A stretch of 64,000 nt of DNA from Microbacterium commune (GTDB lineage Bacteria > Actinomycetota > Actinomycetes > Actinomycetales > Microbacteriaceae), in contig NZ_JACSPX010000001.1 in assembly GCF_014836945.1 (NCBI RefSeq), positions 700,952 to 764,951 on the forward strand. The letters are read 5' to 3'. The position numbers were made by a program, and so were the translations under genes. The notes beneath the pieces are model-generated. The model made no database searches. It saw nothing but the letters and a program-made list of their open reading frames with translations, and had not been told where the DNA came from. Shown here one piece after another: positions 5,050 to 22,345 of the stretch; the stretch's first letter is position 1, and every line of letters starts with the position of its first letter.

Positions 5050-8000
5050 TCATCCGGCTGTGGGTGCGAGTAGGAGGGTCATGGTGACATCGCGTGCGCT
5101 GGTGGCATCGGTCGTGGCCACCAACGGACCATAGGTGCCGCCATCCACGGTCTCAGCGGTCAACAAACTGCTCACCCGCCCACCACCGGTCCCAGCCTGG
5201 GTCGAAACCACCTCTATGCCAGCGGGGGCCGTCCATCCCGTCGTACTCGACGAACGATCCGCCCAGAACGACAACGCGACTCTCTTCTCCCCTTGCACAG
5301 TCACAGCCGGAGTGCGGTGCGAGGAGACATTGGCCGCCGTCGCCGACTCCAGAACCTCAACGCCGCCCTCACCGACACCGCGATAGGCCACCATCGTCAA
5401 GTCCGTACGGAACGTCGAACTCGGCCACGTCATCGTCACCGACTGACCCACCTCCGAACCATCAGCCACCTTCGTGAACGTCGACACCGCCAGCGGCCCC
5501 GACACCACCCGCTTCTTCAGAGTCCACTCCCCTGCACCCGCAGGACCAGTGCCCTCCGTCGCATCGTTGACAGTCACGAACAACACCAGAAGATCCCCGG
5601 CCTGCACACCATCCGGCACAGACACCGCAGCCGACGCCGTCTGCTGACGCATCACCGCCGACTTGCCCACAAACTGCGCCGCCGTCGTCACCGGCCCCGA
5701 GCCGTCGGTCACGTTCACAGAGCGCGAGGTCTCCGCCTCCGCACCGGATTGATCCGTCACGGTCAGAGTGACGGTGTACGTTCCGGCAGCAGCATATGTG
5801 TGCGAGACCGTCGCTCCCGCCTTCGCGGCCGAACCATCGCCGAGGTTCCACGAATAAGCAGCGATGGAATCACCGTCATCCGGATCCGTTGAGGCCGAAC
5901 CGTCGAGAGCGCAAGACAGCAGATCGCATGTCGGTGGTGCGATCGATGCGGTCGGTGGGTTGTTGAGATCCGCAGGCGTACCGCCTCCCTCAGTCACCGT
6001 GGGCGCGAGGAGGAGGGTCATGGTGACGTCGCGTGCGCTGGTGGCATCGGTCGTGGCCACCAACGGACCATAGGTGCCGCCATCCACGGTCTCAGCGGTC
6101 AACAAACTGCTCACCCGCCCACCACCGGTCCCAGCCTGGGTCGAAACCACCTCTATGCCAGCGGGGGCCGTCCATCCCGTCGTACTCGACGAACGATCCG
6201 CCCAGAACGACAACGCGACTCTCTTCTCCCCTTGCACAGTCACAGCCGGAGTGCGGTGCGAGGAGACATTGGCCGCCGTCGCCGACTCCAGAACCTCAAC
6301 GCCGCCCTCACCGACACCGCGATAGGCCACCATCGTCAAGTCCGTACGGAACGTCGAACTCGGCCACGTCATCGTCACCGACTGACCCACCTCCGAACCA
6401 TCAGCCACCTTCGTGAACGTCGACACCGCCAGCGGCCCCGACACCACCCGCTTCTTCAGAGTCCACTCCCCTGCACCCGCAGGACCAGTGCCCTCCGTCG
6501 CATCGTTGACAGTCACGAACAACACCAGAAGATCCCCGGCCTGCACACCATCCGGCACAGACACCGCAGCCGACGCCGTCTGCTGACGCATCACCGCCGA
6601 CTTGCCCACAAACTGCGCCGCCGTCGTCACCGGCCCCGATGACACGACCACTTCGAGCTCGTGCGTCGTCGATCCCGTCGCGCCAGATTCGTCGGTCACG
6701 GTCAGTGTCACCGTGTACGTTCCGGCAGCAGCGAATGTGTGCGAAGCCGTCACCCCCGACGCTGTAGCCGAACCGTCACCGAAGTCCCATGAATACGCGG
6801 TCACCGCGTCTCCGCTGTCGGGATCTGAGGAATCAGCACCCGAGAACTCACATGACAGCGCATCGCAGCTGGGTTCGCCGATGACGGCGACCGGAGGCTG
6901 ATTCGCCAACGCCGCGACCTCGACGCTGGCGGTGGCTGTGGCGCCGAACTCGTCGGTGACCGTGAGCCTCACCGTGTATGTCCCGGCTTCACCGAACCTG
7001 TGCGCCGGCGCCGCCTCCGTGCTTGGCTCTGTGTCATCTCCGAAGTCCCACTCATAGGACGCCACAGAATCGTCTGCGTCGGAGGAGCCCGAGCCGTCGA
7101 ACTGGCAGCTCAGCCGGTCGCACACGACCGGGTCTGCGATGACCGCCACTGGAGCTTCGTTCTCGACGACTACCAGGTCGGTCGACTCTGTAGTCTTCGC
7201 TCCACGGTTGTCCGTGACGGTCAGCTTGACGGTGTAGTCGCCCGATTCAGCGTAGGTGTGGTCGGCCGACGCATCCGCCGCCATCGCTCCGTCGCCGAAG
7301 TCCCAGGAATACGAGACGATCGAGCCGTCTTCATCGCTGGATCCGGCGGCGGAGAACGCACACTCCAAACGTTCGCAATTCGCGTTGAGCACGGCGACCG
7401 GCGGCTTGTTGGCCGCGGCTCGCGGCCCCTCCGCGAGGAACAACGCGCGTGCCCTCCAGTCCACCCCGTCGACGGCGGGCCCGCTGACCACGCTCGGGGC
7501 ACCGGTGGCTGCGCCGCCGGCCCACGAGACGACCGACAGGTTTCCGTCCCCGGTGGTGACGAAGTAAAGGTGCTGCGAGTCTTCGTCGAAGAAGATTCCT
7601 CCCAGCCCGCCGCCGGCAAGTGCGCCTGCGTCACGCACCTCCTGAGTGACGACGCCGCTGTCGGGCGCGAAGCCGCGCGACCACAGCTTATTCGATCCCA
7701 CCTTCGTGTAGTACAGACGTCCGTCAGAGTACGCGAGCCCGGCGAGACTCGGAATGTCGTTGTAGAACGACGGCTTCGTGCCGCGGAACGTCTGTCCGGA
7801 ACCGGTGTTGATGTCGCTCCAATACGGGTCGTTGTACGGATCGATCGCCGTCGCCGCCCCGTAATTCTGCCCGTCGAACGTGCGACGCATCAGCTGCCGG
7901 TCGGAGGTGCCGTAGTAGAGCACGCCGTCGATCACCATCGCGCCCCGGACGTTCGCCCAGTCGATGTCACCGGCGGGTGCGACCGCCACGGGCTCGTCGA

Positions 8001-10059
8001 CCGCTTCGCCCGTGAACCACACGCGCGAGAGTCCGGTGGTCGCGGGCGCGGGTTCGCTCGCAGCAACGCTCTTGAGGATCTCGATGCCGTTGACCAGCGG
8101 GTTTTCGATGTTGTGCACCCAGCTGAGGTCAATGTTTCCGTCAGATGTGACGGTGAACGACTTCATCGTGCCGGTCTGGTCCCCGACGTCGGCGACGATG
8201 TCGTAGTTCTCCAGGGCTTTCGAACCTTCGAGGTTCACGTCGAAGACGCGCTGACCGATCCCACTGGTGCAGCTGCAGCGGTTGGACAGGTAGAGACGCA
8301 CCACGACTTCCTGGCCGCTCAACACGGGGAAGGACCATGCCATCTCTGTTGCGTCGCTCGGATCCCAACGCTCACTGTCGAAGAGCTGAGAGGGTGTGGA
8401 TCCGGGAACGGTTGTGTCCACAGAGGGAACAGGCTCCCAGCCCGCGGCGTTGCTTCCCTGACTGCGGTACGGGCTGCTGGCTCCGTCGTCCGCGGACCAG
8501 TCCGGGCCGCCATCGATCGCGGGCAGAGCGGGGCCACCTGCGTTGACCCGATAGAGCACATCACCGACGTTGCCGACGGGAGCATTGTCCGCCTTGTAGA
8601 CGTTGCTCGGCAGCGCTCCGGTGTCATCCGCGCCAAGGGGGGTGCCGGTGGACACCGGGAAGAACGCGATGCGCGGCCGGCGGTACTTGTGATGGCCGAT
8701 CTGCTCGGTATCGCTGCCCACCCAGAGTCCGGTCGAACTCACGAAAATACTCTCCGCGCCGATTCCCCGGGGGCTTCGTCCCGGGTTCCAGCTGATAGGA
8801 ACACCGTTGTCAATTCGGACTGCGCCGATTCCCGGCCGCGGCACCGCGCCCGGAGCGGGATAATCCCGCCCACCCGCGTTGTTCATCCACCGCTGGTGAC
8901 CGCCCGTGTACACGGCCGCTCCGCTGGAGGCGACGCTGAGCAGAGTGTCACCACCTGTGTCATCGAGCCAATCGGGCTGAACGGTCTGACCCGAGTTGGC
9001 GACGTTCCACCGTGTCACCGTGTCGCAGAGCGTCCCGGGGTTCGGTCCACCCGTGGCAGCAACCATGAAGTAGCTGCCGTCTGGAGACGAAGCGACGCTC
9101 CGCACATATGTGTCGAACGCGTTGGAGAAACAAGCCGGCGCGAAGCGGTCTGTCCTCCAGTCCGTTCGTACCGACGCTGTCGGACCGGTCAGATCGATGA
9201 GAGCCATCTGACGCCGTTCCAGGCCGTCAGCCTTGCGGAAGTTGCCGATGACAGCCATCTGATCGCCCTGCGGCGTCACCGCGAGGGCCTTGGCGCCGAC
9301 GGGAGCCTGAGCCTGGCCGGGTTGTCCTGTGTAGTTCTGATTCTCAGTGAGGGCAACAGAGAGAAAGTTTTCGCGCGCGCCGGTCACCGCGTTCAGCGCC
9401 ACCAAGCCGTTGAACGGCTGGCCGCCCACCACGGTGAAGACGCCGCCCACGTAGAGCCGGGACCCCACCCGCTGCACGTCGTTGACCGCACCGTTGATAG
9501 CGGGCGCGTTGAAGCTCGAGACGATCGCTCCGGTCGTGATGTTCATCAGCACGACCTTCTTGGTCACGCCGTTGACGCCCTGGAAGGAGCCCGCGAGATA
9601 GACGGTGTCGGTGGTGGGGCCGGGCTCCACCGCGCGAACCTGCCCGTTGCTCACGCTCGGGGCGAATGCCGTATTGATGGCGCCGTTCACGGCGCTGAAC
9701 GCAACTACGTTGTTGCGATTCAGCACCGGCGATCCGCTGCTGGGAGCAACCTGGCTGAATTGCCCGGCCACGACAACCATGTCGCCCACCTGAGTGGTGT
9801 CGAGGACGCGACCATCCAGGATCTGCGGCGTCCAGCTCACCGGCACCGGGCTGACCACGCGATCATGCGATGCGGGTGCGGTGATGATGTCCGGCCGATC
9901 CGCCAGAGCGACGACGGGCGATTGCTCTGCGGCCTGCGCCTGCAGACCTCCCGGCAGCGCCAAGAGTTCTGCAGTTATGAACGCCGCCGTCACGATGATC
10001 GCCATGATGCCGCGACGCCTCATCGGCCTCGCGGACACAACGGACTCCCCATATTCCAT
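5050..10059 (-). CDS. Giant secreted protein with propeller, malectin and four PKD domains
   Basis: 1669 residues. ATG 10059 follows GGGGAG. A hydrophobic signal segment lies at about residues 18-35. Residues ~60-500 repeat short strand motifs like a beta-propeller (delayed Val/Gly/Thr blades). About 510-670 matches a malectin-type carbohydrate-binding domain (AIDGGPDWSADD, ILK end). Roughly 680-880 is a second propeller-like part. PKD domains (YSWDFGDG type) follow at ~885, 970 and 1055, then a jelly-roll-like module (~1140-1353), a fourth PKD (~1360-1450) and a near-exact second copy of the module to the end. No LPXTG or C-terminal anchor is seen. It probably binds or organises the secreted polysaccharide. 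Its leader carries several CTGGGGA elements. Confidence 0.85.
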   Translation of the reverse strand: MEYGESVVSARPMRRRGIMAIIVTAAFITAELLALPGGLQAQAAEQSPVVALADRPDIITAPASHDRVVSPVPVSWTPQILDGRVLDTTQVGDMVVVAGQFSQVAPSSGSPVLNRNNVVAFSAVNGAINTAFAPSVSNGQVRAVEPGPTTDTVYLAGSFQGVNGVTKKVVLMNITTGAIVSSFNAPAINGAVNDVQRVGSRLYVGGVFTVVGGQPFNGLVALNAVTGARENFLSVALTENQNYTGQPGQAQAPVGAKALAVTPQGDQMAVIGNFRKADGLERRQMALIDLTGPTASVRTDWRTDRFAPACFSNAFDTYVRSVASSPDGSYFMVAATGGPNPGTLCDTVTRWNVANSGQTVQPDWLDDTGGDTLLSVASSGAAVYTGGHQRWMNNAGGRDYPAPGAVPRPGIGAVRIDNGVPISWNPGRSPRGIGAESIFVSSTGLWVGSDTEQIGHHKYRRPRIAFFPVSTGTPLGADDTGALPSNVYKADNAPVGNVGDVLYRVNAGGPALPAIDGGPDWSADDGASSPYRSQGSNAAGWEPVPSVDTTVPGSTPSQLFDSERWDPSDATEMAWSFPVLSGQEVVVRLYLSNRCSCTSGIGQRVFDVNLEGSKALENYDIVADVGDQTGTMKSFTVTSDGNIDLSWVHNIENPLVNGIEILKSVAASEPAPATTGLSRVWFTGEAVDEPVAVAPAGDIDWANVRGAMVIDGVLYYGTSDRQLMRRTFDGQNYGAATAIDPYNDPYWSDINTGSGQTFRGTKPSFYNDIPSLAGLAYSDGRLYYTKVGSNKLWSRGFAPDSGVVTQEVRDAGALAGGGLGGIFFDEDSQHLYFVTTGDGNLSVVSWAGGAATGAPSVVSGPAVDGVDWRARALFLAEGPRAAANKPPVAVLNANCERLECAFSAAGSSDEDGSIVSYSWDFGDGAMAADASADHTYAESGDYTVKLTVTDNRGAKTTESTDLVVVENEAPVAVIADPVVCDRLSCQFDGSGSSDADDSVASYEWDFGDDTEPSTEAAPAHRFGEAGTYTVRLTVTDEFGATATASVEVAALANQPPVAVIGEPSCDALSCEFSGADSSDPDSGDAVTAYSWDFGDGSATASGVTASHTFAAAGTYTVTLTVTDESGATGSTTHELEVVVSSGPVTTAAQFVGKSAVMRQQTASAAVSVPDGVQAGDLLVLFVTVNDATEGTGPAGAGEWTLKKRVVSGPLAVSTFTKVADGSEVGQSVTMTWPSSTFRTDLTMVAYRGVGEGGVEVLESATAANVSSHRTPAVTVQGEKRVALSFWADRSSSTTGWTAPAGIEVVSTQAGTGGGRVSSLLTAETVDGGTYGPLVATTDATSARDVTMTLLLAPTVTEGGGTPADLNNPPTASIAPPTCDLLSCALDGSASTDPDDGDSIAAYSWNLGDGSAAKAGATVSHTYAAAGTYTVTLTVTDQSGAEAETSRSVNVTDGSGPVTTAAQFVGKSAVMRQQTASAAVSVPDGVQAGDLLVLFVTVNDATEGTGPAGAGEWTLKKRVVSGPLAVSTFTKVADGSEVGQSVTMTWPSSTFRTDLTMVAYRGVGEGGVEVLESATAANVSSHRTPAVTVQGEKRVALSFWADRSSSTTGWTAPAGIEVVSTQAGTGGGRVSSLLTAETVDGGTYGPLVATTDATSARDVTMTLLLAPTAG
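5061..5700. repeat. 640-bp intragenic direct repeat, copy 1
   Basis: Nearly identical to 6000-6639 (offset 939). I see three differences in the first ~35 bases and none in the stretches compared after that. It encodes the last module of the PKD protein, so both copies are in the same frame. Confidence 0.95.
6000..6639. repeat. 640-bp intragenic direct repeat, copy 2
   Basis: Partner of 5061-5700. The two copies are separated by a PKD domain and a short linker. Such high DNA identity between protein modules indicates a recent duplication or ongoing gene conversion, and marks a site prone to recombination or assembly collapse. Confidence 0.95.
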
Positions 10060-10066
10060 TGCAAGC

Positions 10067-10183
10067 TCCCCAGCTTCGTTGCTTCCTCTTACCCCAGTCG
10101 TAGAGGAGAACGCGTTAAGTGTGCCCGAGCGGATGCCTCGTTAGCAATACCCTGCGCCCTCACCTTAGATTCCGCGTCCCCAG
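10067..10183 (-). promoter_or_regulatory. CTGGGGA-type elements in the leader of the PKD gene
   Basis: On the minus strand CTGGGGA occurs at 10183-10177 and 10073-10067, with TACGACTGGGG ending at 10092. The last is an 11-base match to the leader at 14429-14439. The copy nearest the gene also serves as its ribosome site. Confidence 0.5.
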
Positions 10184-11079
10184 CGATGGAGCACATTCAA
10201 CACAAGATCACCTGAGCGCGGCACGATCGCCACAGGAATGGCAACCCACGCACGCCATTGGCCGGGGTTGGTGCGCAGGGCGCGACGAGCCCAGCTCCAG
10301 GCCTTATCGCGCTTTCCCTCGCTCGCGTAACCGAACGCGATCTGTCCCTGGAGCCTCGACGCGCCGACGCGATGCGCCGCGACGTCCGGGTGATTCTCGA
10401 GCATCCATATCGAGCTCGCGATCTTCGTGTCCCACCGGCGCGAGAAGTACGAGGTCTTGCCCCACAGAACTCGCACGAGCGGTTGGTCGGTGTGAACGAT
10501 GGGATGCAGCGCAGAGCTTCGCAGCAGGATGTCCCAGTCTTCGTTTTGACTGCCCGGGATCTCCTCGTCGATCAAGCCGAGCTCGCCCATCAGCGCGGCC
10601 CGCCGGAACAAGAAGTTGGAGGAGTGGAGCATCGACATGCGCGACCCGAGCAGCATCTCGTGGGTGACCGTCTCCGTGCCGGCGAGCCGCACTGTCGACC
10701 GATCTCCGTAGTCCACTTGAATCGCAGTAGTGGCCATCGGCGCGTCGGGAAATCGGGCCAGTGCTTTCACCTGCGCAGCGAGCTTGTCCGGCATCCATAC
10801 GTCATCGTCATCGCAAAAGGCAACAAGCTCCCCGCCGCTGGCGAGGATTCCCGTATTGCGCGCACCGGCGAGCCCGGGAGTGCGCTCGTTGCGAAGAATC
10901 TCGACGGGGCGTTCCCCGTCTCTGCGAAGAGTCTCGTCTGGCTCAGCCCGATCGAACACGACAATCGTGTTGATGCTGCCCTCATACTGCTGGGCTCTCA
11001 CCGCGTCGATCGCACGCCGAAGCTCGACGGGTCTCTGGTGAGCCGGAATCACCACGCTGACCGAGGGGTACTTATTCAT
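10165..11079 (-). CDS. Family 2 glycosyltransferase
   Basis: 304 residues. ATG 11079 follows GAGGAGAG; the longer frame to 11154 lacks support. SVSVVIPAHQRPVELRRAID is the GT-A nucleotide-binding start, GLAGARNTGI and the acidic DXD-type FCDDDDVWMPD are the metal and donor site, and NEDWDILLR is the usual ED motif near the catalytic base. It should add one sugar to the lipid-linked repeat unit in the cytoplasm. It lies 11 bases after the fused polymerase gene, in the same minus-strand operon. Confidence 0.9.
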   Translation of the reverse strand: MNKYPSVSVVIPAHQRPVELRRAIDAVRAQQYEGSINTIVVFDRAEPDETLRRDGERPVEILRNERTPGLAGARNTGILASGGELVAFCDDDDVWMPDKLAAQVKALARFPDAPMATTAIQVDYGDRSTVRLAGTETVTHEMLLGSRMSMLHSSNFLFRRAALMGELGLIDEEIPGSQNEDWDILLRSSALHPIVHTDQPLVRVLWGKTSYFSRRWDTKIASSIWMLENHPDVAAHRVGASRLQGQIAFGYASEGKRDKAWSWARRALRTNPGQWRAWVAIPVAIVPRSGDLVLNVLHRWGRGI

Positions 11080-11090
11080 GGCTCTCTCCT

Positions 11091-13493
11091 CTATGACGCC
11101 TTGCTCCGCGATCGAGTGTCCGCGTTCGGCTCTCTGCTGCGACTGTCGGTGCACATGATCAGCCCGACCGGGTACACACCACTGGCGAGGTGGCGTTCAT
11201 AAGCGCGACGCAGCGTTCCCGTGCGGGACCGACGATCGATGACCAGCAGAACGCGCGCTCCTCTGTGGTCGCCCGCACGCAGATGGGCGTTAAGTGCGCC
11301 CGCCATACGGCGAGCGCGAGGGCTGAGTGGATCAGCGAGGACCCCGGCCACCGGAAGGTACGCGCGCACCGCTTCCAACGTGCGTGGAACGTCAGCAGCA
11401 GAGACACTGGCGACGACGGGAATATCGATACCCAACCGGGATACCGGCCTCAGGCCGATCCGACCGAGGTATCGATCGTAGACAAGTACCAGCGCCAGGC
11501 CAGCCAACGCCCCAAGCCCCAGGCCCGTTGTCACCCTGATGGTCAGCTCGGAGTTCGTGCGTCGCGGTGTCGCTGCGCTGATGACCTGACCGGCAGGAAG
11601 ATCGTTGGTGCCGAGCAGCACGTCTGCCACTTCTACTCGCTCGCGTCTGATCTTCGTCACGGTGCCCCACAGCGATTCACCTCTCGCTGTCTCGGTCAAC
11701 TCGCTGATGTCTCGATAGACGTCATCGAGGGCCTCTTCGCGTGCACTGTACCTGGCCACGACCGACTCATTGGATTGCGCGATCAGTTCCGTCCGCAGTC
11801 TCAGGTACTCCTCCGCAGCGGTTTCGACCCCCAGGATGGCATCTCGTTCGTCTGCGCCGGCGTAGCGCAGAATCAGGACTCGAGAATTGCTCTCGGCACC
11901 AATGCTCAACGCGCTTCGAACGTGTTGCTCAGGAAGATCGAGCTCGTCGGCGACCGCTCGCACCACTGGCACGGATGTGGCGATCCGCGCCTCACCATCG
12001 AGAGAAAGCGTGCGGACACCGGGCACACCGACAAGATCAGCAGCAGGCACGAAGATGCGCTGCGTGGCCTCGATCGGAGCGCCTCTGAGAACATGCACCC
12101 CCAGGCCCGCTGCGCCGCCAGCAATGGCGATCACGAGCACTGTCAGGGCGTGCTGCCGGAACGGACGTAGCACCTGGCTGACGGCGGGAAGCTCCGCTGG
12201 ATGCTCTCGTGCCAGTAGGCCGATGCCGATGAACCCGACGTAGAGGCCGACCCCTACGGCGTTGTACACCGGCATCGTGATGAGGAGGGCGATGAGCGCG
12301 CACAAGGCTGCGGTCCCCTCGGCGCTCGTCGCCCTGAGGTTCTGGACGATCTGCCGAAGCATGAAGCCCAGATACAGGGCGAGCCCGATCAGACCAGCGC
12401 CGAAGATCACAAGCCACAGCTGTCCCTGCGTGCCCAGGGGCGGAGGTTCGCATTTCGGACATGCGTCGGTGGCACCGCCCGCGATCGATTTGAAATTACC
12501 TGCGACGTCTCGGGTGGAGCCAAAGCCCACCAGCGGCGACCCTTCGAGCGTGCTGTTCACCGAGAGCAAGCCCAGATTGGTGCGTCCCTCATTGCTGTGG
12601 GGGTTGTCGAAGCGCGCAAGGACCAGGTCGCCGAGAGATGAGAACATCAGGACGGCGGCGACCCCGGCCAGCAGCATCCCGGACGAGAAGAGCAGCTTGA
12701 AGTGCCCCCTGCTCGCGGCTCGGATGACGAGGAACGCCCCCATCGCGGCGACCGCGGCCCACATGCCCCGGTTGAGCGAGGACACGATCGTAAACAGTCC
12801 CAACCCCAGGATGACGAGCATGGCCGTCTTCCTCAGGGTGCTGCCCCGAGACCATGACGCGACGAAGAACGGCAAGCTGACCGCAGTCGTCAGGCCCCAC
12901 TCGTTGGTATATGCGAACGGAGCACTCGGACGCGCCTCGTCGTAGCCCAGGAAATTCTGAACCTGCGCGGTCTGGATATGCACGAGATCGTGGACGAACG
13001 GCTGGCTGGCCACGGAGGACGGGAGCACCATCTGCAGTGCGGACGGAAGGCTCAGCTCGGGCACGAGCACACCGAGCATCCCTCCGCCGACCATCATCAC
13101 GAACAGCCAGGCGATGCTTCGCGCCAAACGCTCGGACGTCACCAGCCGCCGAGTGTTGACCACGTACAGCGCCACGATCGTGATGATCAGGTACCAGCAG
13201 AACCGGTAGCCGAAGGTGAGATAGCGGCTCATCTGCGTTCCCGGGACAGCCCCGGGCGCGTCCACCTGAATCACCAGGACCCCGATGGCGAGCCAGCAGA
13301 GCCAGACCATCCACATCCCGAAGCCGCGTGGCATGTGCACCAGCCGTTGCTTCATCAGGTGCACCGCCATCGGTATCGCCATGACGAAGAACATGATCTG
13401 CCACACACCCAGAACCCACCAGATGGGCAACCCGACGAAGAGCAGCGCGATCGGCCAGCCGGCGTCCTGAGATCGCAGGAAGCGGTGGATCAT
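11091..13493 (-). CDS. Fusion of O-antigen ligase/Wzy-type polymerase and Wzz-like co-polymerase
   Basis: 800 residues from an ATG that overlaps the upstream stop (ATGA). Residues 1 to ~440 are a polytopic membrane domain with the Wzy/WaaL pattern: SSLNRGMWAAVAAMGAF, then a long external loop (~290-345) containing SNEGRTNLG and GSPLVGFGSTRD. A further helix (~448-468) starts a Wzz-like part: an outer alpha/beta and helical region (~470-650), a closing helix (~650-671), then ~130 cytoplasmic residues. ARVLLVIDRRSRTGT near 745 looks like a P-loop domain with no Walker A. Polymerase and chain-length regulator are normally separate proteins, so this fusion would couple them 1:1. Confidence 0.75.
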   Translation of the reverse strand: MIHRFLRSQDAGWPIALLFVGLPIWWVLGVWQIMFFVMAIPMAVHLMKQRLVHMPRGFGMWMVWLCWLAIGVLVIQVDAPGAVPGTQMSRYLTFGYRFCWYLIITIVALYVVNTRRLVTSERLARSIAWLFVMMVGGGMLGVLVPELSLPSALQMVLPSSVASQPFVHDLVHIQTAQVQNFLGYDEARPSAPFAYTNEWGLTTAVSLPFFVASWSRGSTLRKTAMLVILGLGLFTIVSSLNRGMWAAVAAMGAFLVIRAASRGHFKLLFSSGMLLAGVAAVLMFSSLGDLVLARFDNPHSNEGRTNLGLLSVNSTLEGSPLVGFGSTRDVAGNFKSIAGGATDACPKCEPPPLGTQGQLWLVIFGAGLIGLALYLGFMLRQIVQNLRATSAEGTAALCALIALLITMPVYNAVGVGLYVGFIGIGLLAREHPAELPAVSQVLRPFRQHALTVLVIAIAGGAAGLGVHVLRGAPIEATQRIFVPAADLVGVPGVRTLSLDGEARIATSVPVVRAVADELDLPEQHVRSALSIGAESNSRVLILRYAGADERDAILGVETAAEEYLRLRTELIAQSNESVVARYSAREEALDDVYRDISELTETARGESLWGTVTKIRRERVEVADVLLGTNDLPAGQVISAATPRRTNSELTIRVTTGLGLGALAGLALVLVYDRYLGRIGLRPVSRLGIDIPVVASVSAADVPRTLEAVRAYLPVAGVLADPLSPRARRMAGALNAHLRAGDHRGARVLLVIDRRSRTGTLRRAYERHLASGVYPVGLIMCTDSRSREPNADTRSRSKAS

Positions 13494-14290
13494 CTTGTGC
13501 GGTTCGTCAACGCAGGCGGCTTGTCCGGATGCTCGATGTCATACCCGAATGCCGCTGCGCGCTCGCCGAATCTTGCGATGATCCGCCTATAGGCCAATCG
13601 GTCGAGAGGTGAGCCATCCGCCATGTCTCGCCAGCGATCGAGGTACGAATCTGATCGCGTGGACTGAACCCTGTCCGCGGCAAGCGGGGTGTCGACTCCG
13701 ATGAACTCCGCGATCGTCCGGAGTGTCTGGTCGGGCTGGTCGATCAGATGCTCGTAGTGGACCAGATGCAGACGGTCGAGGTGCTCGCTGTCCGCTCGCA
13801 GGATGTCGTGTGCGATGAACCAGTGCTCGACAAGTCGCTCGAGGCTCTGCCGCTTCGCCCACTTCTTCGTCGAAAGGGCGACCACGACAGGATGACGCAG
13901 AATCATGATCAGACTGCAGCCGGGGAACACCGCCTGCAGGTATCTGCCCATGATCAGGTTCGGTGGCGACTTCTCGACCAGCAGAGGTCGCGAAAGATCC
14001 CAATGCGGAGTCCACGCTTCTAAAAGGCTCTCCCGAGCCAGCGCCGGATCGCCGAGATCTTCCGTCAGATGCGCTCGCCTGCGCCGAGCGAACCGCCCGG
14101 GTCCACCGTGCGCCGCAGCCGGCAGGTAACTCTGCTGAAGGTGTTGCCCCTCGTCTTCCTTCGCCCCCGTGCCCTCGAACCCCGAGATGGCGGGGTGATC
14201 GGCGAGAATCCGGCCGAGAGCGGTGGTTCCGCTGCGATGCAGCCCACCGATGAAGACCAGTCGCGTCGGATCGATCGTAGCCAGCCCCAT
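13490..14290 (-). CDS. PAPS-dependent sulfotransferase (1 of 3)
   Basis: 266 residues. GGLHRSGTT (residues 15-23) is the 5'-phosphosulfate loop of sulfotransferases, and ILRHPVVVALS about residue 135 is the 3'-phosphate motif. Length fits the bacterial sulfotransferase family. The reaction is transfer of sulfate from PAPS to a hydroxyl, here most likely on a sugar of the polymer or its precursor. It overlaps the fused polymerase gene by four bases (ATGA), so modification and polymerisation are encoded together. PAPS would come from the cys genes at 22.3-27.8 kb. Confidence 0.85.
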   Translation of the reverse strand: MGLATIDPTRLVFIGGLHRSGTTALGRILADHPAISGFEGTGAKEDEGQHLQQSYLPAAAHGGPGRFARRRRAHLTEDLGDPALARESLLEAWTPHWDLSRPLLVEKSPPNLIMGRYLQAVFPGCSLIMILRHPVVVALSTKKWAKRQSLERLVEHWFIAHDILRADSEHLDRLHLVHYEHLIDQPDQTLRTIAEFIGVDTPLAADRVQSTRSDSYLDRWRDMADGSPLDRLAYRRIIARFGERAAAFGYDIEHPDKPPALTNRTR

Positions 14291-14444: not shown

Positions 14445-15998
14445 GTGGAGGCTGAATCTCGGTCTGGTCGCGACCTACCCTCTTTGCGTTCTGCGCTGCG
14501 GCACCACATCACGTCGATCATCGTCTGCACCGCGCTTGCTCTCGGATTCGCGGCTCTCTATGTGGTGAACCTTCCCTACACCTACACCTCTTCGGCTGTC
14601 GTGCTGCTTGCGCCTGCGCCCGGCAACCCGCTCACCGCCGAAGCAGCGTCGGGGAGCGGTACGCAGACCACTGTTGCCATGTCCACAGAAGCAGAGCTGG
14701 TCCGCACCTCGGCGGTGCGTGACATCGTGGCCGATACGCTCGGGCGGCTTGCACCGGACGGGCGCGAACGCCTCGAGGTGACGATACCCACCAACACGCA
14801 GATGCTCGAGATCTCGTTCACTTCCCGCACCGCGAAGCAGGCACAGGAAGCGGCGCAGGCGTTCGCCGAGGGTTATCTCGCCTTTCGAGAAGAACGCGCC
14901 ACGAGCACGCAGAACTCACAACTGGAAGCACTCCAGACGCAGATCGACGCGGCCGAAGCGAATCTGCGACGGGCGACGTCTGAGGCCGCAAGTGCCGGGA
15001 CAGGCTCTTTCGCCTCTCAGGAGGTCCAGCTCTACACGGACCGACTCGCGCAGCTGAGCACTTCGCGTAGCGCAGCCGAAGCCCTCAACACCGCGCCTGG
15101 ATCGATCATCGCGCCGGCTGTCGAACCCGCCGGCGCGAATGAGCTTCCCGAATGGGTCTACTTCGTGGCGGCGGCTGCGCTCGGAATGCTGGCGGGGATC
15201 GCATTCGCTCTTCTCCGGGAGTGGCGGCGAGACCTCGTACGGGACACAAACGCCGCAGCGGAAATGGATGTCGCCGTTTTCTCGACCGTGCCTTCACCGG
15301 GTAGCACCCTGGTCAAAGACACCGCGGATGATGGGACGGAGCACGAGGCATACCGCCGGCTGCGCGCCGCGGTCGTGGCGAACGGACCCGCGCCGCACAT
15401 CCTCGCCGTCGCGGGCGTCGAGGACGAGTCCTCCTGGGGAATCGCGAGCAATCTGGCTGTCGTGCTCGCGGAGGCCGAGTTCAGTGTCGCTCTCATCGCC
15501 GCCGATATGAGTTCCGCTCCCAGCCAAGACCCGCTCGGCATCGGCCGACACCGGGGTCTGGCTGATTCAGCGGGAGAAGTTGCTGCAGCCCGCGAGTTCC
15601 TGGTCGAAACGCGAGGCGTGAACGTGCTGACGGCCGGCCTCGATACTGCCGGCGCCCGAGACCTGACCGCCAGCCCCGCCTTCCGCGCAATCGTGAACAG
15701 CCTTCATGAGGACTTCGACTTCGTCGTGATCGCGGCGGCTTCCGCCGGCTCGGCGGAAGGAGATGCCGCTCTTCTCGCCTCGGACTCCGTCCTTCTCATC
15801 CTCACCTCGGATCGCACCAAGCGAGCGCGCCTCAACGCGGCTCTCGAGCGTTTCGACCGTCTCGGGATCGATGTCTTGGGCGCAGTCAAGGTGACGACCG
15901 CCAAGGCGCCCGCGACACACAGCGAGCGAAGCCAGAGGCCGACTCGGACATCCCGGAACGAAGAGATGAATCCCAAGTATGCGAGGGCACGCAGATGA
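14445..15998 (+). CDS. Wzz-type chain-length protein with degenerate tyrosine-kinase domain
   Basis: 517 residues from GTG 14445, which has GGGGGA eight bases upstream; the longer TTG frame would start inside the promoter. An N-terminal Wzz domain is bracketed by helices at about residues 25-45 and 235-255, with a helical external part between. The C-terminal domain has the BY-kinase fold pattern but has lost its catalytic motifs. The Walker A region reads GVEDESSWGIASNLA (no GKS/T), A' reads ALIAADMSS and Walker B reads FDFVVIAAASAG (Asp replaced by Ala). There is no tyrosine cluster. It is likely a pseudokinase partner or regulator of the true kinase whose end is at position 2-376. Confidence 0.85.
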   Translation: MEAESRSGRDLPSLRSALRHHITSIIVCTALALGFAALYVVNLPYTYTSSAVVLLAPAPGNPLTAEAASGSGTQTTVAMSTEAELVRTSAVRDIVADTLGRLAPDGRERLEVTIPTNTQMLEISFTSRTAKQAQEAAQAFAEGYLAFREERATSTQNSQLEALQTQIDAAEANLRRATSEAASAGTGSFASQEVQLYTDRLAQLSTSRSAAEALNTAPGSIIAPAVEPAGANELPEWVYFVAAAALGMLAGIAFALLREWRRDLVRDTNAAAEMDVAVFSTVPSPGSTLVKDTADDGTEHEAYRRLRAAVVANGPAPHILAVAGVEDESSWGIASNLAVVLAEAEFSVALIAADMSSAPSQDPLGIGRHRGLADSAGEVAAAREFLVETRGVNVLTAGLDTAGARDLTASPAFRAIVNSLHEDFDFVVIAAASAGSAEGDAALLASDSVLLILTSDRTKRARLNAALERFDRLGIDVLGAVKVTTAKAPATHSERSQRPTRTSRNEEMNPKYARARR

Positions 15999-17149
15999 GC
16001 GACGTCGGCTTAGGCCTCGGCCGCGCCGATCACGCATTCGCGGCACCGGCGCAGGAGCGCGGAGCGTCTCGGCGCCGCGGCACGCATGCGGCGATTCCCC
16101 TGGCATCCTCTGAGACCGCGCGATTCCTCGTGCCGCTGAGCCCGACCGTGTCGAGTGCAAGAGCCATCCGCGGATATAAGGTCTCCTCGTCTGCTCTCAG
16201 TCGTCTCTCTGCCGCAGTCGTGTCCGGTGCATTCCGGTTGGGCGCTGCGAGCGCGCTGCCCAGACGCGTGACGCTCGGGGGGCCTGGCACATTCGTGGAG
16301 CACGTGCTCCAACGATTCCCCAGCGGCGGGGCATTCAGTGTTCATCTCGGCCCGCCTCGAGCGAACCGCAAACCTGTGATGCACATCATGGATCGCACAG
16401 GCACTTCGCTGGCCTATGTGAAGCTGGGTGTGAACGCCCTGACCTGCGCGCGGGTACGCGCCGAGACCGCCTCGCTGTCAGAACTCTCCTCTCGTCGCCT
16501 GCAGGGTGTGGTCGTACCTGAAGTCATCGACTCCGGAACCTGGGACGACCTCGACTACCTGATCATGAGCCCTGTGCACGACGGCCCTCCCGCCGAACCA
16601 TCGCTCACGAGGCGGCGTCGCGCCAGCGAGTCTCTGGTTGGGGCATTCCCGTCCTACGACAGCTCCGTCGCCGACGCGCCGTGGTGGACGAACGCTCTTT
16701 CCTCGCTCGAGACGAAGCGAGGTGACAGCGATGCGGAGCGCCTGATGAGCGCCGCTGCCCGTCTTCAGGACAAGTTCGGTCGCGTGACTCTTCGGCATGG
16801 GGCGTGCCATGGCGACTGGACGCCCTGGAACATGGCCGCGCGCGACGACGATGCGATCGCGGTCTGGGACTGGGAGCGCTTCGCGGAGAACCGTCCTGCC
16901 GGGTGGGATGCTCTGCACTTCCACGTGGCTTCCTACCGGGGCGACGCGGCCACCGGCTTGCGCAGTGCCCGCCGACATCTAGCCGAGATCATCACCGGGG
17001 TTTCCCATCCGCACGAGCGCGAGGCCATCCTCGCAACGTATCTTCTGCATCGCGGGTGCACATTCCTGGCCGATCGGCAGGAGGCCGCCGGCGCGCCGAA
17101 CGGCCCCCTGGGGCGGTGGCTGCTTCCTGCGCTCGAAGAGCTCGTGTGA
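15995..17149 (+). CDS. APH/choline-kinase-fold phosphotransferase of the polysaccharide locus
   Basis: 384 residues, start overlapping the previous stop (ATGA). CHGDWTPWNMAA (about residue 271) is the catalytic loop of aminoglycoside-phosphotransferase-like kinases (His-Gly-Asp, with Asn for metal), and AVWDWERF (~290) is the metal-binding DxE/DxD element. The first ~85 residues are basic, low in conserved features and probably a separate segment. Members phosphorylate small molecules such as aminoglycosides, choline, sugars or thioribose; the substrate here is unknown. Coupled translation with the pseudokinase suggests a job in polymer synthesis or decoration, not resistance. Confidence 0.75.
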   Translation: MSDVGLGLGRADHAFAAPAQERGASRRRGTHAAIPLASSETARFLVPLSPTVSSARAIRGYKVSSSALSRLSAAVVSGAFRLGAASALPRRVTLGGPGTFVEHVLQRFPSGGAFSVHLGPPRANRKPVMHIMDRTGTSLAYVKLGVNALTCARVRAETASLSELSSRRLQGVVVPEVIDSGTWDDLDYLIMSPVHDGPPAEPSLTRRRRASESLVGAFPSYDSSVADAPWWTNALSSLETKRGDSDAERLMSAAARLQDKFGRVTLRHGACHGDWTPWNMAARDDDAIAVWDWERFAENRPAGWDALHFHVASYRGDAATGLRSARRHLAEIITGVSHPHEREAILATYLLHRGCTFLADRQEAAGAPNGPLGRWLLPALEELV

Positions 17150-17180: not shown

Positions 17181-18146
17181 TCAACTTCGGGAGTAGCCCA
17201 ACCAGTACCGCACAGGGGCGGTGAGGACCTTCACCGCCCGACGTTGGCGAGGATTCATCCGAGTGCGCCATACCTCGTCAGACTTGATCACCAACGGCTC
17301 TTTGCGGAAGCGCATCGGATTACCGCCGATCGAGTGTCCTGCAGGTATATCGATTCCACCAGGGGCCGAGAGATCCGGGGAATAATGCCCGGGAAGCGCT
17401 AATGCGCCCCACACCCTGCGCAGAATGTCGTTCGGGGCCTTGACGAAGTCCTCGTAGCGGAGGCGTTGCACCGGGCGGTCACTCAGACGCGCCAATTGCA
17501 CGAGGAGGTTGTTCGACATCCACAGCATCGAGGCCCAGAAGGAGGAATACCGAGTCATCATCTCTCCTGCCTCAGCAGTTTCCGGCCGCGCCACTTCTCG
17601 CGACCAGGAGTAAGCGACCGCGACGCTGTCGCGGACGAGATGAAGCAGACGCAGATCCACCCGCGGATCTTTGACGAGTGCGAGCGCGAGTGATGCGTGC
17701 TTGGACGAATCGACAACGACGGCTGCCCCCGTCACCGACGCCGCCGCCGCGTAGACCGCGCGGTAGTAGCCGGTGTACTCCAGGATCTGCTGCCGAGTCC
17801 GCCGGCGCACAGGAAGGACCGTCTTGAAAACGCGCCGCTGCCTGTCAACGGCGTCGAGCAGGCCGAGCACCTTGTCGGTGTCGACAGCAGACCAGCCCCC
17901 GAATGCCCGTTCGCCGACCGCGCTCCAGAATGAGCAGTCGTAGAACCGACTGCCGCACTCGCACAGCTCATTCTCGCGGAGACCTCGAGTCCACAGGTGA
18001 ACCATCTCACCGAGCGATACCACGGTCGGCTGTGCCTCGAGGACGCGCTCGAGAAGAGTGGAGCCAGACCGGCCGAAACCACCGATGTACAGCACCGCAG
18101 GCATACCCTGTGGGAATGATCGAGAGGGGTGAAGCCTGTCTGCCAT
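17181..18146 (-). CDS. PAPS-dependent sulfotransferase (2 of 3)
   Basis: 321 residues if it starts at ATG 18146; a GTG at 18209 and an ATG at 18104 are alternatives and the ribosome site does not settle it. GGFGRSGSTLLERVL is the 5'-phosphosulfate loop and LVRDSVAVAYSW the 3'-phosphate motif. LCECGSRFYDCSFW is the Cys-rich segment common in one group of bacterial sulfotransferases. It ends 31 bases from the convergent APH-fold gene and is divergent from the third sulfotransferase. Likely substrate is a sugar hydroxyl of the exopolysaccharide. Confidence 0.85.
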   Translation of the reverse strand: MADRLHPSRSFPQGMPAVLYIGGFGRSGSTLLERVLEAQPTVVSLGEMVHLWTRGLRENELCECGSRFYDCSFWSAVGERAFGGWSAVDTDKVLGLLDAVDRQRRVFKTVLPVRRRTRQQILEYTGYYRAVYAAAASVTGAAVVVDSSKHASLALALVKDPRVDLRLLHLVRDSVAVAYSWSREVARPETAEAGEMMTRYSSFWASMLWMSNNLLVQLARLSDRPVQRLRYEDFVKAPNDILRRVWGALALPGHYSPDLSAPGGIDIPAGHSIGGNPMRFRKEPLVIKSDEVWRTRMNPRQRRAVKVLTAPVRYWLGYSRS

Positions 18147-18307
18147 TATCGCCGTCCGATTCGAAACGCAATCTCGTGCAGTCGCCGCTCGTCGCGGTAT
18201 GCGTCTCACAGACTAGTCCGTCGTCCCGCTAGACTGCATTCGACCGCACGGCATGGGAAGTCGTGGGCCACTGGGGAGTCGCAGTGATGCGACGGCAAGG
18301 AGTATCG

Positions 18308-19171
18308 ATGATGCCCAAAGACGCGCTGATGCGCCTACGTCCGCTCGCACTGAAGGCGATTGATTCAACGGCATCTGCCACAGCCCCTCTGCGTATGCTG
18401 CCCTCCTTTCTCATCGTCGGCGGCCAACGCTGTGGCACGACCTCGCTCTTCAAGACGCTCGCGCAGCATCGGTCGGTCGCCCGTCCTTTCGCCCTCAAGG
18501 GGGTGCACTACTTCGATACCCATTTCGATCACACTTTCAATTGGTACCGCGGGCATTTCCCTCTCCGCCTGACCTCTCGACTCAAGCGTCTCGCCGGTCC
18601 CGCACCCATCACCGGCGAATCGAGCCCGTTCTACGGGTTTCACCCGCTGGCGCCTCAGCGAATCGCCGAGGCGCTTCCCGGAGTGCGTCTCATCCTCTTG
18701 ATGCGCGACCCCGTGACGCGAGCGTACTCGGCGCACAGCCACGAGAAGGCACGGGGGTTTGAGGACGAGGACTTCATCACGGCCATCGAACTCGAACAGC
18801 AGCGCATCGCGGGCGAGCGCGAGCGAATGATCGAGGACCCCTCCTACGTCAGTTTCTCTTTGCAGCACCATGCGTATGTGTCGCGCGGCAGGTACATCGA
18901 GCAGATCCAGGCGCTGGAGGCCGCGGTCGGTCGGGACCATCTGCACCTCGTCGATTCGCACGAGTTCTTCACCGATCCCGAGTCGACCTTCGCTGACATC
19001 CTTCGATTCCTTTCACTCACCCCGCATTCCGGCATCAAGTTCGAGCGGCACAATGCGCGCGAGCGCAACCCGCTCGACGGCCACCTCCGTGAAGACCTGC
19101 TCGCGCGGTTCGAGGAGACGGATCAGCGTCTGAGCCAATGGTGGGGGCGAGCGCCCTCGTGGAGACGGTGA
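18308..19171 (+). CDS. PAPS-dependent sulfotransferase (3 of 3), heparan NDST-like
   Basis: 287 residues from ATG 18308, which has AAGGAG upstream; a longer GTG frame (18263) includes the CTGGGGA element and is unlikely to be translated. IVGGQRCGTTSLFKTLAQH is the 5'-phosphosulfate loop, and LLMRDPVTRAYSAHSHE the 3'-phosphate site. The LKGVHYFD segment and the spacing resemble the heparan-sulfate N/O-sulfotransferase group. It is followed after seven bases by the flippase gene, so sulfation and export are co-expressed. A TAGACT -10 element is visible about 75 bases upstream. Confidence 0.85.
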   Translation: MMPKDALMRLRPLALKAIDSTASATAPLRMLPSFLIVGGQRCGTTSLFKTLAQHRSVARPFALKGVHYFDTHFDHTFNWYRGHFPLRLTSRLKRLAGPAPITGESSPFYGFHPLAPQRIAEALPGVRLILLMRDPVTRAYSAHSHEKARGFEDEDFITAIELEQQRIAGERERMIEDPSYVSFSLQHHAYVSRGRYIEQIQALEAAVGRDHLHLVDSHEFFTDPESTFADILRFLSLTPHSGIKFERHNARERNPLDGHLREDLLARFEETDQRLSQWWGRAPSWRR

Positions 19172-19178
19172 CCGCGAG

Positions 19179-20732
19179 ATGGTCACGACATCCCCGAGAC
19201 GCGCAACGGGCACCCGAGATGTCGCGAGGGGCGGTCTTGCCAATCTGATCGGAGCGGGATACGCGGGCGTGGCTTCATTCGCCACAACGGCAATCGTCAC
19301 GCGAATCGCCACGCCGGAGGACGCCGGTGTGTACTTCGCCGCGATATCGGTCTTGCTTATCGCGGTCTCGATGCTTGAACTCGGTGTCCCCGTCGGGAAC
19401 GTGTACTTCATCTCGCGGTATCGGAGCCTTGGACGAACGAACGCCCTGCGGAAGGTCCTCGTTGCGGGCAGCAGCCCGCTGCTGGGTTTCTGCGCAATCG
19501 CCCTGACCCTCGCCGTCATCTTCCGGGAACAGCTGGGAAACGCCATATTCGGGCGCAACGTCGATGCCGCCGGTACTGTCATCCTGATCCTGTGCCTCGG
19601 CGCCGTCGCGGCCATCATCGCGGATAGCACGCTCGGCGCCACTCGAGGCTTCGGTGTGATGCGAACGACGGTCGTCGCCGACAAGTTCGTGAATCCGACG
19701 ATTCAGCTCCTCGCACTGATCGTTCTATGGAGCGTCGGCATGACAGGCGGTCCGGAGCTGATCTGGACGCGAGTCCTGGCATTCGCCGCCGTTGCCGGCA
19801 TTTCGATCCCCTGGCTGCTGAAGCTCGTACGGAAATCCTCGATGCCTTCAGACCAGACCTTTCGCCAGAGCTGGGTTCCAGAAGCGTCCATGTTTCGTGA
19901 ATACTGGGCGTTCACCGGACCTCGTTCGCTCGGCCAGATCGCTCAGGTGGCGATCCAACGCGTCGACATCGTCCTCGTCGGACTCTGGCTGGGCCCGGCG
20001 GAAGCGGCTGTATATGCCGCAGCCACACGCTTTCTCATCTTCGGCCAGCTCACGGCTGCGGCCATCGGAACGGCGGTGCAGCCCCGGATCAGCGCGCTCG
20101 CGTCACGACGTGAACGATCGCAGTTGCAGGACCTGTATCGAGTCTCGACGAGCTGGGTGGTGCTCGCCACGTGGCCCCTGTACCTCACGTTCATCCTCGA
20201 AGCGCCTACGTTGATGCTCGTATTCGGTGACGACTACTCGCGCGGTGCGATTCTGTTGCAGTTGCTGTCAGCGGCGATGCTGGTCGCCACGGCATGCGGC
20301 GCAGTGGATGCAGTTCTTCTGATGGCGGGGAAGTCCACCTGGACCATGTACAACGCCTGGTTCGCGTTGGCCGTCAACCTGGCTCTGAACATCTGGCTGA
20401 TCCCGCAGCTGGGTATTGTCGGGGCGGCCGTGGCCTGGGTCGCAGCGATCTGCGCGAACAATCTGATTCCGCTCGTGCAGGCGAAGATCGGAATCGGGAT
20501 TCATCCGTTCGGCCGGTCTTCAGTGCTCACCATGTTCTCAGCCGCCACTCTCTTCGGCGTCCTGCCGTGGCTGGTCAAGTCCGCGGGAGGCGGTCCGATC
20601 GGCTCCGTGATCACCTTGGTTCTTGCTGCAGCCGTCTACAGCGTCCTGTTGTGGCGGTGGCGAGCTCTGATCGAACTGGACGGTCTCCTGCGTCGCAGAA
20701 GACCGTCCAGTCGGGGGCGGGGAGATTTCTGA
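19179..20732 (+). CDS. Wzx-type flippase (polysaccharide repeat-unit transporter)
   Basis: 517 residues. About 13-14 hydrophobic segments alternate with short loops through the whole length, matching the MATE/MVF-like polysaccharide transporter family; GGLANLIGAGYAGVASF opens the first helix. In Wzx/Wzy systems it flips the undecaprenyl-linked repeat unit to the outer membrane face, where the polymerase (11091-13493) joins units. Last gene of its plus-strand operon; its stop lies one base from that of the convergent hydrolase gene. Confidence 0.85.
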   Translation: MVTTSPRRATGTRDVARGGLANLIGAGYAGVASFATTAIVTRIATPEDAGVYFAAISVLLIAVSMLELGVPVGNVYFISRYRSLGRTNALRKVLVAGSSPLLGFCAIALTLAVIFREQLGNAIFGRNVDAAGTVILILCLGAVAAIIADSTLGATRGFGVMRTTVVADKFVNPTIQLLALIVLWSVGMTGGPELIWTRVLAFAAVAGISIPWLLKLVRKSSMPSDQTFRQSWVPEASMFREYWAFTGPRSLGQIAQVAIQRVDIVLVGLWLGPAEAAVYAAATRFLIFGQLTAAAIGTAVQPRISALASRRERSQLQDLYRVSTSWVVLATWPLYLTFILEAPTLMLVFGDDYSRGAILLQLLSAAMLVATACGAVDAVLLMAGKSTWTMYNAWFALAVNLALNIWLIPQLGIVGAAVAWVAAICANNLIPLVQAKIGIGIHPFGRSSVLTMFSAATLFGVLPWLVKSAGGGPIGSVITLVLAAAVYSVLLWRWRALIELDGLLRRRRPSSRGRGDF

Positions 20733-20733
20733 A

Positions 20734-22161
20734 TCAGCCTTGGACGAGAGCCCGCCAGGCAGCCACCGAAGACGTGTCGCGTAGACGGAAGTCGTTTTGG
20801 TCACTCGGCGCGACAGCGTCGTAGTAGGAAACGAACAGCGCGTCATTGTCGCGCAGATATGCGCCGATCTCACGCAACCAGGCTGCGCGCGCAACGCCGG
20901 TGTCTGACCCCATCAGGGTGGACCCGGTCTCAGCGATTCCGAACGGCTTACCCTCCGCCTTGGACTTCGCGATGACACTCCCGAAGATCGCCTCCGGGTC
21001 CTTGTAGCCCGTGTTGTTGTTCCAGGGGTTGTAGGGGTCCCAGGCGAGCACGTCGATGGCCGCCGAGCCCGGGTAGTAGTCATCGAAGTCTCGATTCGAT
21101 TTGGGATCGAGCGTCCACGACATCAGCACCAGGGTCGCGTGAAGATTCGACCGGCAGGTCTCGTCAGCGATGGATGAGATCCGCTGCCATGCTGCACGGT
21201 AGTCCGCTGAGGTGATCTCACCACGCGCCACGTCGTCCTCGGGCTCGTGGAAGTAGGTCCAGTAGACCTGCACATTGGTCGGGGCGCTCTGGAACCAGGA
21301 CCGCAATCGACTGTCATACGCGCCCGACAGCACGTCCTTGGGCGCGATCTTGAACGAGATCGACAGATCCGAACTGGGGGCGATTTTGGTCACGTTCCAG
21401 TTCGGCGCGCCGCGCTGAAACACCCGCACGACGTCAGGGGTGCCGTAGGCCTGCACTGCACGGTCCCACCCCTCCTGCATCGATGACCCATCGGAGGTGC
21501 CAAGGCTCACCCCGAAGCGCGTGTCGCCCAGCGGAAGCTTCGCCGCGCACTGACCGACGGTGGGGTTCTCCTGGGGGGCGTCGACTGCGACCGACTTGAG
21601 CGAGACGGAGTCCACGTAGAGCTGGTCGCCCTTGGCTGCACCGGCGAATACGACGTTCAGATCCAGGGCTGCGCCACTGCGCTCAACGGTGAAGTCCATC
21701 GTGAGCTGAGTCCACTCACCGCTCACAGGCCGGGACTCGGTCTTGTGGGCTTCAGCTGAGCCGTCCGCAACCTCCCTGGCCCTGATCTGCGCAGTCACCT
21801 CCCTGCTGGCCTTCACCCAAGCGGTCATGCGGTATTCCGCTCCACGCTCAGCCGCCGAGACGGTGTTCTTCGAGTCGTTCAGCACGGTGATGCCAGGTGA
21901 GCCGACATCTATGCGTGCGGACTTCCCGTCAGAGCGCGAGACGGTGCTGGCGGTGAGTCGATCCGACGAGAGGTTCGTGCGCCAATTCTGCACGCCAGCC
22001 GAAAAATCGGCATTTACGACCAACTCGTCGGCAGGCGTGGCAGCGCTCGCGCTTTCAGCGGTGGCGGCACCTGCGATGACGACGGATGCTACTGCGACGG
22101 CCGCGATCAACAGCCGCGAGGTCAAACGGTGTCTGGTGGTTTTCGGGTAAGAGAGGGGCAT
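20734..22161 (-). CDS. Secreted GH26-like glycoside hydrolase with N-terminal carbohydrate-binding domain
   Basis: 475 residues from ATG 22161 (AGGAAG at a seven-base gap). Signal peptide about residues 1-41. Residues ~45-195 look like a CBM4/CBM6-type jelly roll (NADFSAGVQNWRTN, LYVDSVSL). The C-terminal ~270 residues look like a clan-A (beta/alpha)8 hydrolase closest to GH26. WTYFHEPED carries the likely acid/base Glu, and PFGIAETGST the likely nucleophile Glu. Substrate is not readable. Inside an export locus such enzymes usually trim the polymer or clear misplaced polymer. Confidence 0.75.
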   Translation of the reverse strand: MPLSYPKTTRHRLTSRLLIAAVAVASVVIAGAATAESASAATPADELVVNADFSAGVQNWRTNLSSDRLTASTVSRSDGKSARIDVGSPGITVLNDSKNTVSAAERGAEYRMTAWVKASREVTAQIRAREVADGSAEAHKTESRPVSGEWTQLTMDFTVERSGAALDLNVVFAGAAKGDQLYVDSVSLKSVAVDAPQENPTVGQCAAKLPLGDTRFGVSLGTSDGSSMQEGWDRAVQAYGTPDVVRVFQRGAPNWNVTKIAPSSDLSISFKIAPKDVLSGAYDSRLRSWFQSAPTNVQVYWTYFHEPEDDVARGEITSADYRAAWQRISSIADETCRSNLHATLVLMSWTLDPKSNRDFDDYYPGSAAIDVLAWDPYNPWNNNTGYKDPEAIFGSVIAKSKAEGKPFGIAETGSTLMGSDTGVARAAWLREIGAYLRDNDALFVSYYDAVAPSDQNDFRLRDTSSVAAWRALVQG

Positions 22162-22345
22162 GTAAAACTTCCTGTTGAGGCGCACCGCAGCCCCTCGCTG
22201 GACCACAGGACACGCCTATCGTAACTTAATCGTGATTTCTCCCCGCAGGGACCCTAGCCCACGCAGCTGAGAGATCCAAATCCTCGCCACCCAGCGGCGG
22301 CCACCCTCGCGACCATGACCGCTCGCTGTGCCGAGCGATTCCGAT

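Follow-up and report, generated by a model that had tools for sequence, protein, structure and literature searches.

Wzy, the enzyme that links sugar units into long surface polymers, and Wzz, the partner that controls polymer length, are treated as separate proteins in the literature. It has long been asked how Wzz determines the length of the Wzy product, in part because the Wzy-Wzz complex is hard to purify and its composition is known from few systems. In the WzyE-WzzE complex of enterobacterial common antigen synthesis, about one Wzy is present per eight Wzz, with Wzy located in the lumen of the ring (PMC10030265). In Shigella, competition between two Wzz proteins for a single Wzy can occur (PMC12004945). 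The wps-1 cluster of the actinobacterium Actinoplanes missouriensis contains genes for WpsJ (Wzy), WpsK (Wzz), WpsG (Wzx), sulfotransferases, a GH26 protein and the kinase-like WpsI, and deletion of the cluster distorts sporangia (PMC13390465).

We have analyzed a 64,000-nucleotide stretch of the Microbacterium commune genome (hereafter referred to as the window), taken from a 2.73-Mb actinobacterial assembly that consists of 3 contigs and is 99.99% complete. A first-pass annotation had proposed that a polymerase and a chain-length regulator are joined here in one protein. The gene concerned, at positions 11091-13493 of the minus strand, is an intact ORF that encodes 800 amino acids. Its ATG start and the stop codon of the sulfotransferase gene upstream overlap by 4 nucleotides (ATGA, 13490-13493), and the downstream GT2 gene is preceded by an RBS-like GGAGAG sequence. 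Profile comparisons, fold matches, phylogeny and 23 further fused homologues back the proposal, and we conclude that the product is a genuine Wzy-Wzz fusion in one polypeptide. The AlphaFold model of the whole chain, built with 47 aligned sequences, has a pLDDT of 89.8 and a pTM of 0.87; when the model was submitted to a fold search, in line with a check proposed in the first-pass annotation, a WaaL fold followed by a Wzz/polysaccharide co-polymerase (PCP) fold was retrieved. The segments of the chain and the neighboring genes are listed in Table 1.

Table 1. Segments of the fused protein and neighboring genes in the window
Feature	Position	Strand	Evidence
Initiating sugar-phosphate transferase	939..2471	+	PF02397, 223 bits
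Large secreted PKD/malectin surface protein, frequent neighbor in fused loci	5050..10059	-	PF18911, PF11721
GT2 glycosyltransferase, next gene after the fusion, ATG 11079 as likely start	10165..11079	-	PF00535
Cytoplasmic tail, residues 677-800 and stop codon	11091..11465	-	hhalign, AlphaFold tail model, Wzc match to 786-795
Wzz/PCP domain, residues 449-676	11466..12149	-	hhalign to stand-alone Wzz; Wzc, KpsE and WzzB folds
Linker, residues 434-448, short cytoplasmic tether	12150..12194	-	DSSP H438-447 before the TM helix at 449
Wzy/O-antigen ligase-type domain, residues 1-433	12195..13493	-	AlphaFold, WaaL 7tpg match, PF04932 in homologues, conservation
Sulfotransferase, gene overlapping the fusion gene by 4 nt	13490..14290	-	PF13469, 88 bits
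Second stand-alone Wzz, C-terminal BY-kinase-like domain without Walker A	14445..15998	+	PF02706, 33.3 bits (cut-off 25.5); TIGR01007 below cut-off
APH/protein-kinase-like protein after the second Wzz, conserved in clusters, like WpsI	15995..17149	+	PF01636
Sulfotransferase	17181..18209	-	PF13469
Sulfotransferase	18263..19171	+	PF13469, PF00685
Wzx flippase	19179..20732	+	PF01943, PF01554
CBM and weakly GH26-like secreted protein, possible WpsE counterpart	20734..22206	-	PF02018, 37.3 bits; PF02156, 14.4 bits, below cut-off

The second half of the chain had been described as a Wzz domain of ca. 230 residues between two helices. In the model, two transmembrane (TM) helices (H449-470 and H648-676) bracket an extracytoplasmic domain of ca. 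180 residues that contains a 54-residue helix. When the profile of the fused C-termini was compared by hhalign with that of stand-alone Wzz proteins, they matched with 99.9% probability (E 7e-31) over a region spanning both TM helices. Residues 436-795 match the fold of Wzc (7nhr, Z 14.0), and residues 437-680 match KpsE (Z 11.8), WzzB (Z 10.0) and also WzzE; Foldseek results likewise supported the PCP fold. Thus, the features by which a PCP is recognized, a pair of TM helices flanking an alpha/beta extracytoplasmic domain that includes a long helix, and homology to known PCPs, are all present, as is the Wzz fold, the absence of which had been named as an argument against the fusion. Pfam and NCBIfam scans of the window protein itself gave nothing useful (neither PF04932 nor PF02706 matched, and PRK15487 RfaL appeared only at E 0.047), and a sequence-profile search of solved structures returned no matches; PF02706 is above its cut-off within the fused homologue of genome G769 (27 bits vs 25.5). 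The extracytoplasmic loop is 176-202 residues long in the fused proteins except those of G772 and G781 (loci L054 and L055), in which most of the long helical arm is lost and the loop is 130 residues long. It is doubtful that the PCP domain of these two proteins controls length.

The tail that follows the second TM helix (residues ca. 677-786) is modeled as a small four-stranded alpha/beta module, with low confidence for the last ca. 14 residues of the chain. The first-pass annotation had called it degenerate P-loop-like, which does not agree with our results: no Walker A region was recognized in the tail, and its last strand-helix-strand aligns with the portion of the second Wzz behind Walker B, where the kinase-like domain ends (hhalign, probability 77%, E 2e-5). 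Being too short, without Walker A and with only the terminal beta-alpha-beta recognizable, the tail does not place the protein among PCP-2a (Wzc-like BY-kinase) proteins. A fold search with the tail alone gave weak matches, the best of them to phosphoribosyltransferase-type proteins (Z 7), and no BY-kinase was in the list of matches. The profile comparison and the Wzc match obtained with the full model point to a kinase origin, and the tail is a probable remnant, ca. 90 residues long, of the last part of a BY-kinase-like domain.

The second Wzz-type protein, noticed at 14445 in the first-pass annotation, is confirmed by its PF02706 match. Such a protein is encoded in the window and in 24 of the 25 other loci with fused or split genes; in the G1116 locus, none appeared within the 20 kb examined. 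Since the GK[ST] Walker A motif is missing from the second Wzz proteins of every locus checked, they are pseudokinases as judged by sequence. Together with their relatives, these proteins (14445-15998 in the window) form a group of pseudokinase PCPs that is widespread. Less than 3 kb before the window start (G000:C1:698442-700148) lie two more Wzz domains (51.7 and 45.5 bits), so that, with the second Wzz, the region has three PCPs besides the fused one. Most types of neighbors seen in the window recur around the fusion elsewhere, the second wzz, aph and wzx often being consecutive. An exopolysaccharide carrying sulfate groups is the probable product of the locus. The PKD surface-protein gene contains a 300-nucleotide direct repeat (5060-5359 and 5999-6298, 99% identical), and the homologous protein of locus L046 (2-4117) also has two identical-looking copies at its end, which suggests a recent duplication or gene conversion.

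The best explanation of these observations, and one that we consider likely, is that an exopolysaccharide polymerase of the Wzx/Wzy type and a PCP are linked covalently, giving the polymerase a PCP of its own, with the second Wzz possibly completing a mixed ring. Wzy would join lipid-carried repeat units outside the membrane, and the attached PCP would always be beside it, so that chain growth would never proceed without the regulator. With an extracytoplasmic loop similar in length (190-204 residues) to that of the fused PCP (the two 130-residue loops excepted), the second Wzz could supply the other subunits of the ring, in which case it would contact the fused PCP directly, and the fused subunit would place the polymerase in a ring consisting mostly of this pseudokinase. 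More tentatively, the fused chain may act as a ring-seeding subunit that joins several separate pseudokinase PCPs, in which case the polymerase would be built into the regulator and no longer a free guest in the ring lumen, and length would be set by the mix of the two PCPs. The first-pass annotation held that the fusion forces 1:1 stoichiometry. This is true within the chain; however, since almost all fused loci also encode a second Wzz, the polymerase to PCP ratio in the working complex may be well below 1:1. It is rather unlikely that several fused chains form a ring of their own with equally many polymerases arranged around it, the second Wzz serving for export or pseudokinase scaffolding: the chain itself is 1:1 and its PCP domain does have the PCP fold, but in the sole measured complex one Wzy occupies the ring lumen, at about 8:1 (PMC10030265), and the second Wzz is retained in nearly all fused loci and, as weak evidence, has a loop of similar length.

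The ca. 440 residues of the N-terminal half, assigned in the first-pass annotation to an O-antigen ligase/Wzy membrane domain, are indeed modeled as such, with 12 TM helices. Residues 6-433 match the O-antigen ligase WaaL (7tpg) with Z 22.4 over 359 residues, the next fold matches being the SEDS proteins FtsW/RodA (Z about 12-14). With 12 helices, this half would begin and end on the same face of the membrane, which is what the PCP helix behind it requires. PF04932 (Wzy_C) matches 34 of the 47 aligned homologues at E <= 0.01 (best 5.4e-13). Conserved positions include R97, R188, N241-R242, R294, R304 and Y410, and R97, R188, R242, R294 and R304 are invariant in the 45 rows of the alignment. 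The 12-helix WaaL-like fold and the conserved arginines fit the Wzy/O-antigen ligase superfamily, for which a fold of 10-14 TM helices, large periplasmic loops and conserved arginines are expected. The fold by itself would suit a polymerase as well as a ligase. Could the N-terminal half be a WaaL/PglL-like ligase that moves finished polymer, delivered by the attached PCP, to an acceptor? We regard this as improbable. The closest solved fold is that of WaaL and the PF04932 model carries the name O-antigen ligase, but Wzy and WaaL are members of one superfamily, and a polymerase is the more plausible partner for an attached chain-length PCP. In addition, WpsJ of Actinoplanes, which has the same kind of domain, has been assigned as Wzy (PMC13390465).

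The same fusion was sought in other genomes, as the first-pass annotation had suggested. Sixteen genomes of family f18 and 7 genomes of family f45 encode fused homologues, making 24 fused proteins from three actinobacterial families with the window included. One of the 24 (G780) has a disrupted C-terminus; its gene (L122, 9084-11551) is broken in the PCP part, the remaining domain running on in another frame. The closest fused homologues are 40-47% identical and collinear across the junction. In two close pairs, dN was lower than dS in each of the three longer segments (Wzy, PCP and tail), and Wzy showed the strongest effect. The linker, which is the least conserved segment in one of these pairs, has too few residues for a dN/dS judgement. 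By these comparisons, both halves of the fusion are under purifying selection. In genomes G689 and G760, the same two pieces are adjacent genes with a 4-nucleotide overlap, and the tail is again part of the second piece. Although these split genes would fit an artefact, i.e., two genes joined by frameshift or read-through in one assembly, a reading that the first-pass annotation had allowed for, it can be dismissed as extremely improbable, given the same join in 23 other genomes with the chain intact in 22, the collinear junctions and dN below dS on either side of them. The conserved joined protein is a real, selected arrangement.

No relatives were present in the viral contigs searched. The plasmid records contained one, on an 11.85-Mb Nonomuraea record, with the Wzy half only, and a PCP-profile search across the phylum matched many Wzz-like proteins. 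Another fusion within the same pathway was seen in an Actinomycetes MAG, where a single ORF of 1086 amino acids (L028, 4389-7649) combines a Wzy domain with a Wzx-like flippase.

In the Wzy tree, fused proteins form two groups, and the one-clade topology expected for a single origin was not rejected (AU p 0.217). In the second of these groups, most proteins are missing the tail. Since the split pairs of G689 and G760 are nested in the main fused group, they may represent either fission or a surviving pre-fusion state. In the PCP-domain tree, in which several short rows are on long branches, all fused and split domains fall together with most short stand-alone Wzz proteins and two long ones of family f35, and this group is separated from the long second Wzz proteins at 98% support. 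Clusters of the nearest unfused relatives usually have wzy with a short wzz a few genes away, and a long wzz often adjoins wzx; in more distant unfused relatives, just one Wzz was found. The simplest account would be a joining of wzy to the short wzz of its own cluster. In the Wzy tree, the window fusion groups with G467 of family f18 (support 91-92). Among the 300 searched, the remaining matches from the window's own family are stand-alone Wzy proteins that belong to a different clade, which makes it likely that the window fusion was acquired by horizontal transfer.

Both modules belong to known families, and no description of a natural Wzy-Wzz fusion was found in the literature searched, which included few of the subscription papers. 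The existence of a conserved natural covalent chain suggests that permanent attachment of Wzz to Wzy is compatible with function. It also limits the possible geometries, since the polymerase must sit near the first PCP helix. For cryo-EM, such a chain is a stable target. The G689 and G760 split pairs and the unfused relatives are ready-made comparisons for the fusion. The fusion thus provides a handle on the question of how polymerase and length regulator cooperate.

Compared with known systems, the N-terminal half has its fold in common with WaaL and FtsW/RodA, at an identity of 15% or less and with a different reaction expected. The PCP-2a protein Wzc and the BY-pseudokinase PCPs EpsV/EcpK and HfsA/HfsB (PMC12004946) resemble the fused PCP in combining a PCP fold with a cytoplasmic kinase-like part whose nucleotide-binding motifs are lost; the fused PCP differs in that only the ca. 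90-residue remnant of this part is present and a polymerase is joined at the other end. The wps-1 cluster, likened here by gene type, has a similar set of genes, a Wzx/Wzy pathway in an actinobacterium and a possible sulfated exopolysaccharide as its product. However, its Wzy and Wzz are separate and one Wzz is named, whereas in the window the two are fused and two PCPs are present. Finally, in both WzyE-WzzE and the fused chain, a Wzy polymerase is physically paired with a Wzz co-polymerase; the pairing is non-covalent and ca. 1:8 in the former, whereas the latter contains one of each, with a second Wzz encoded beside it.
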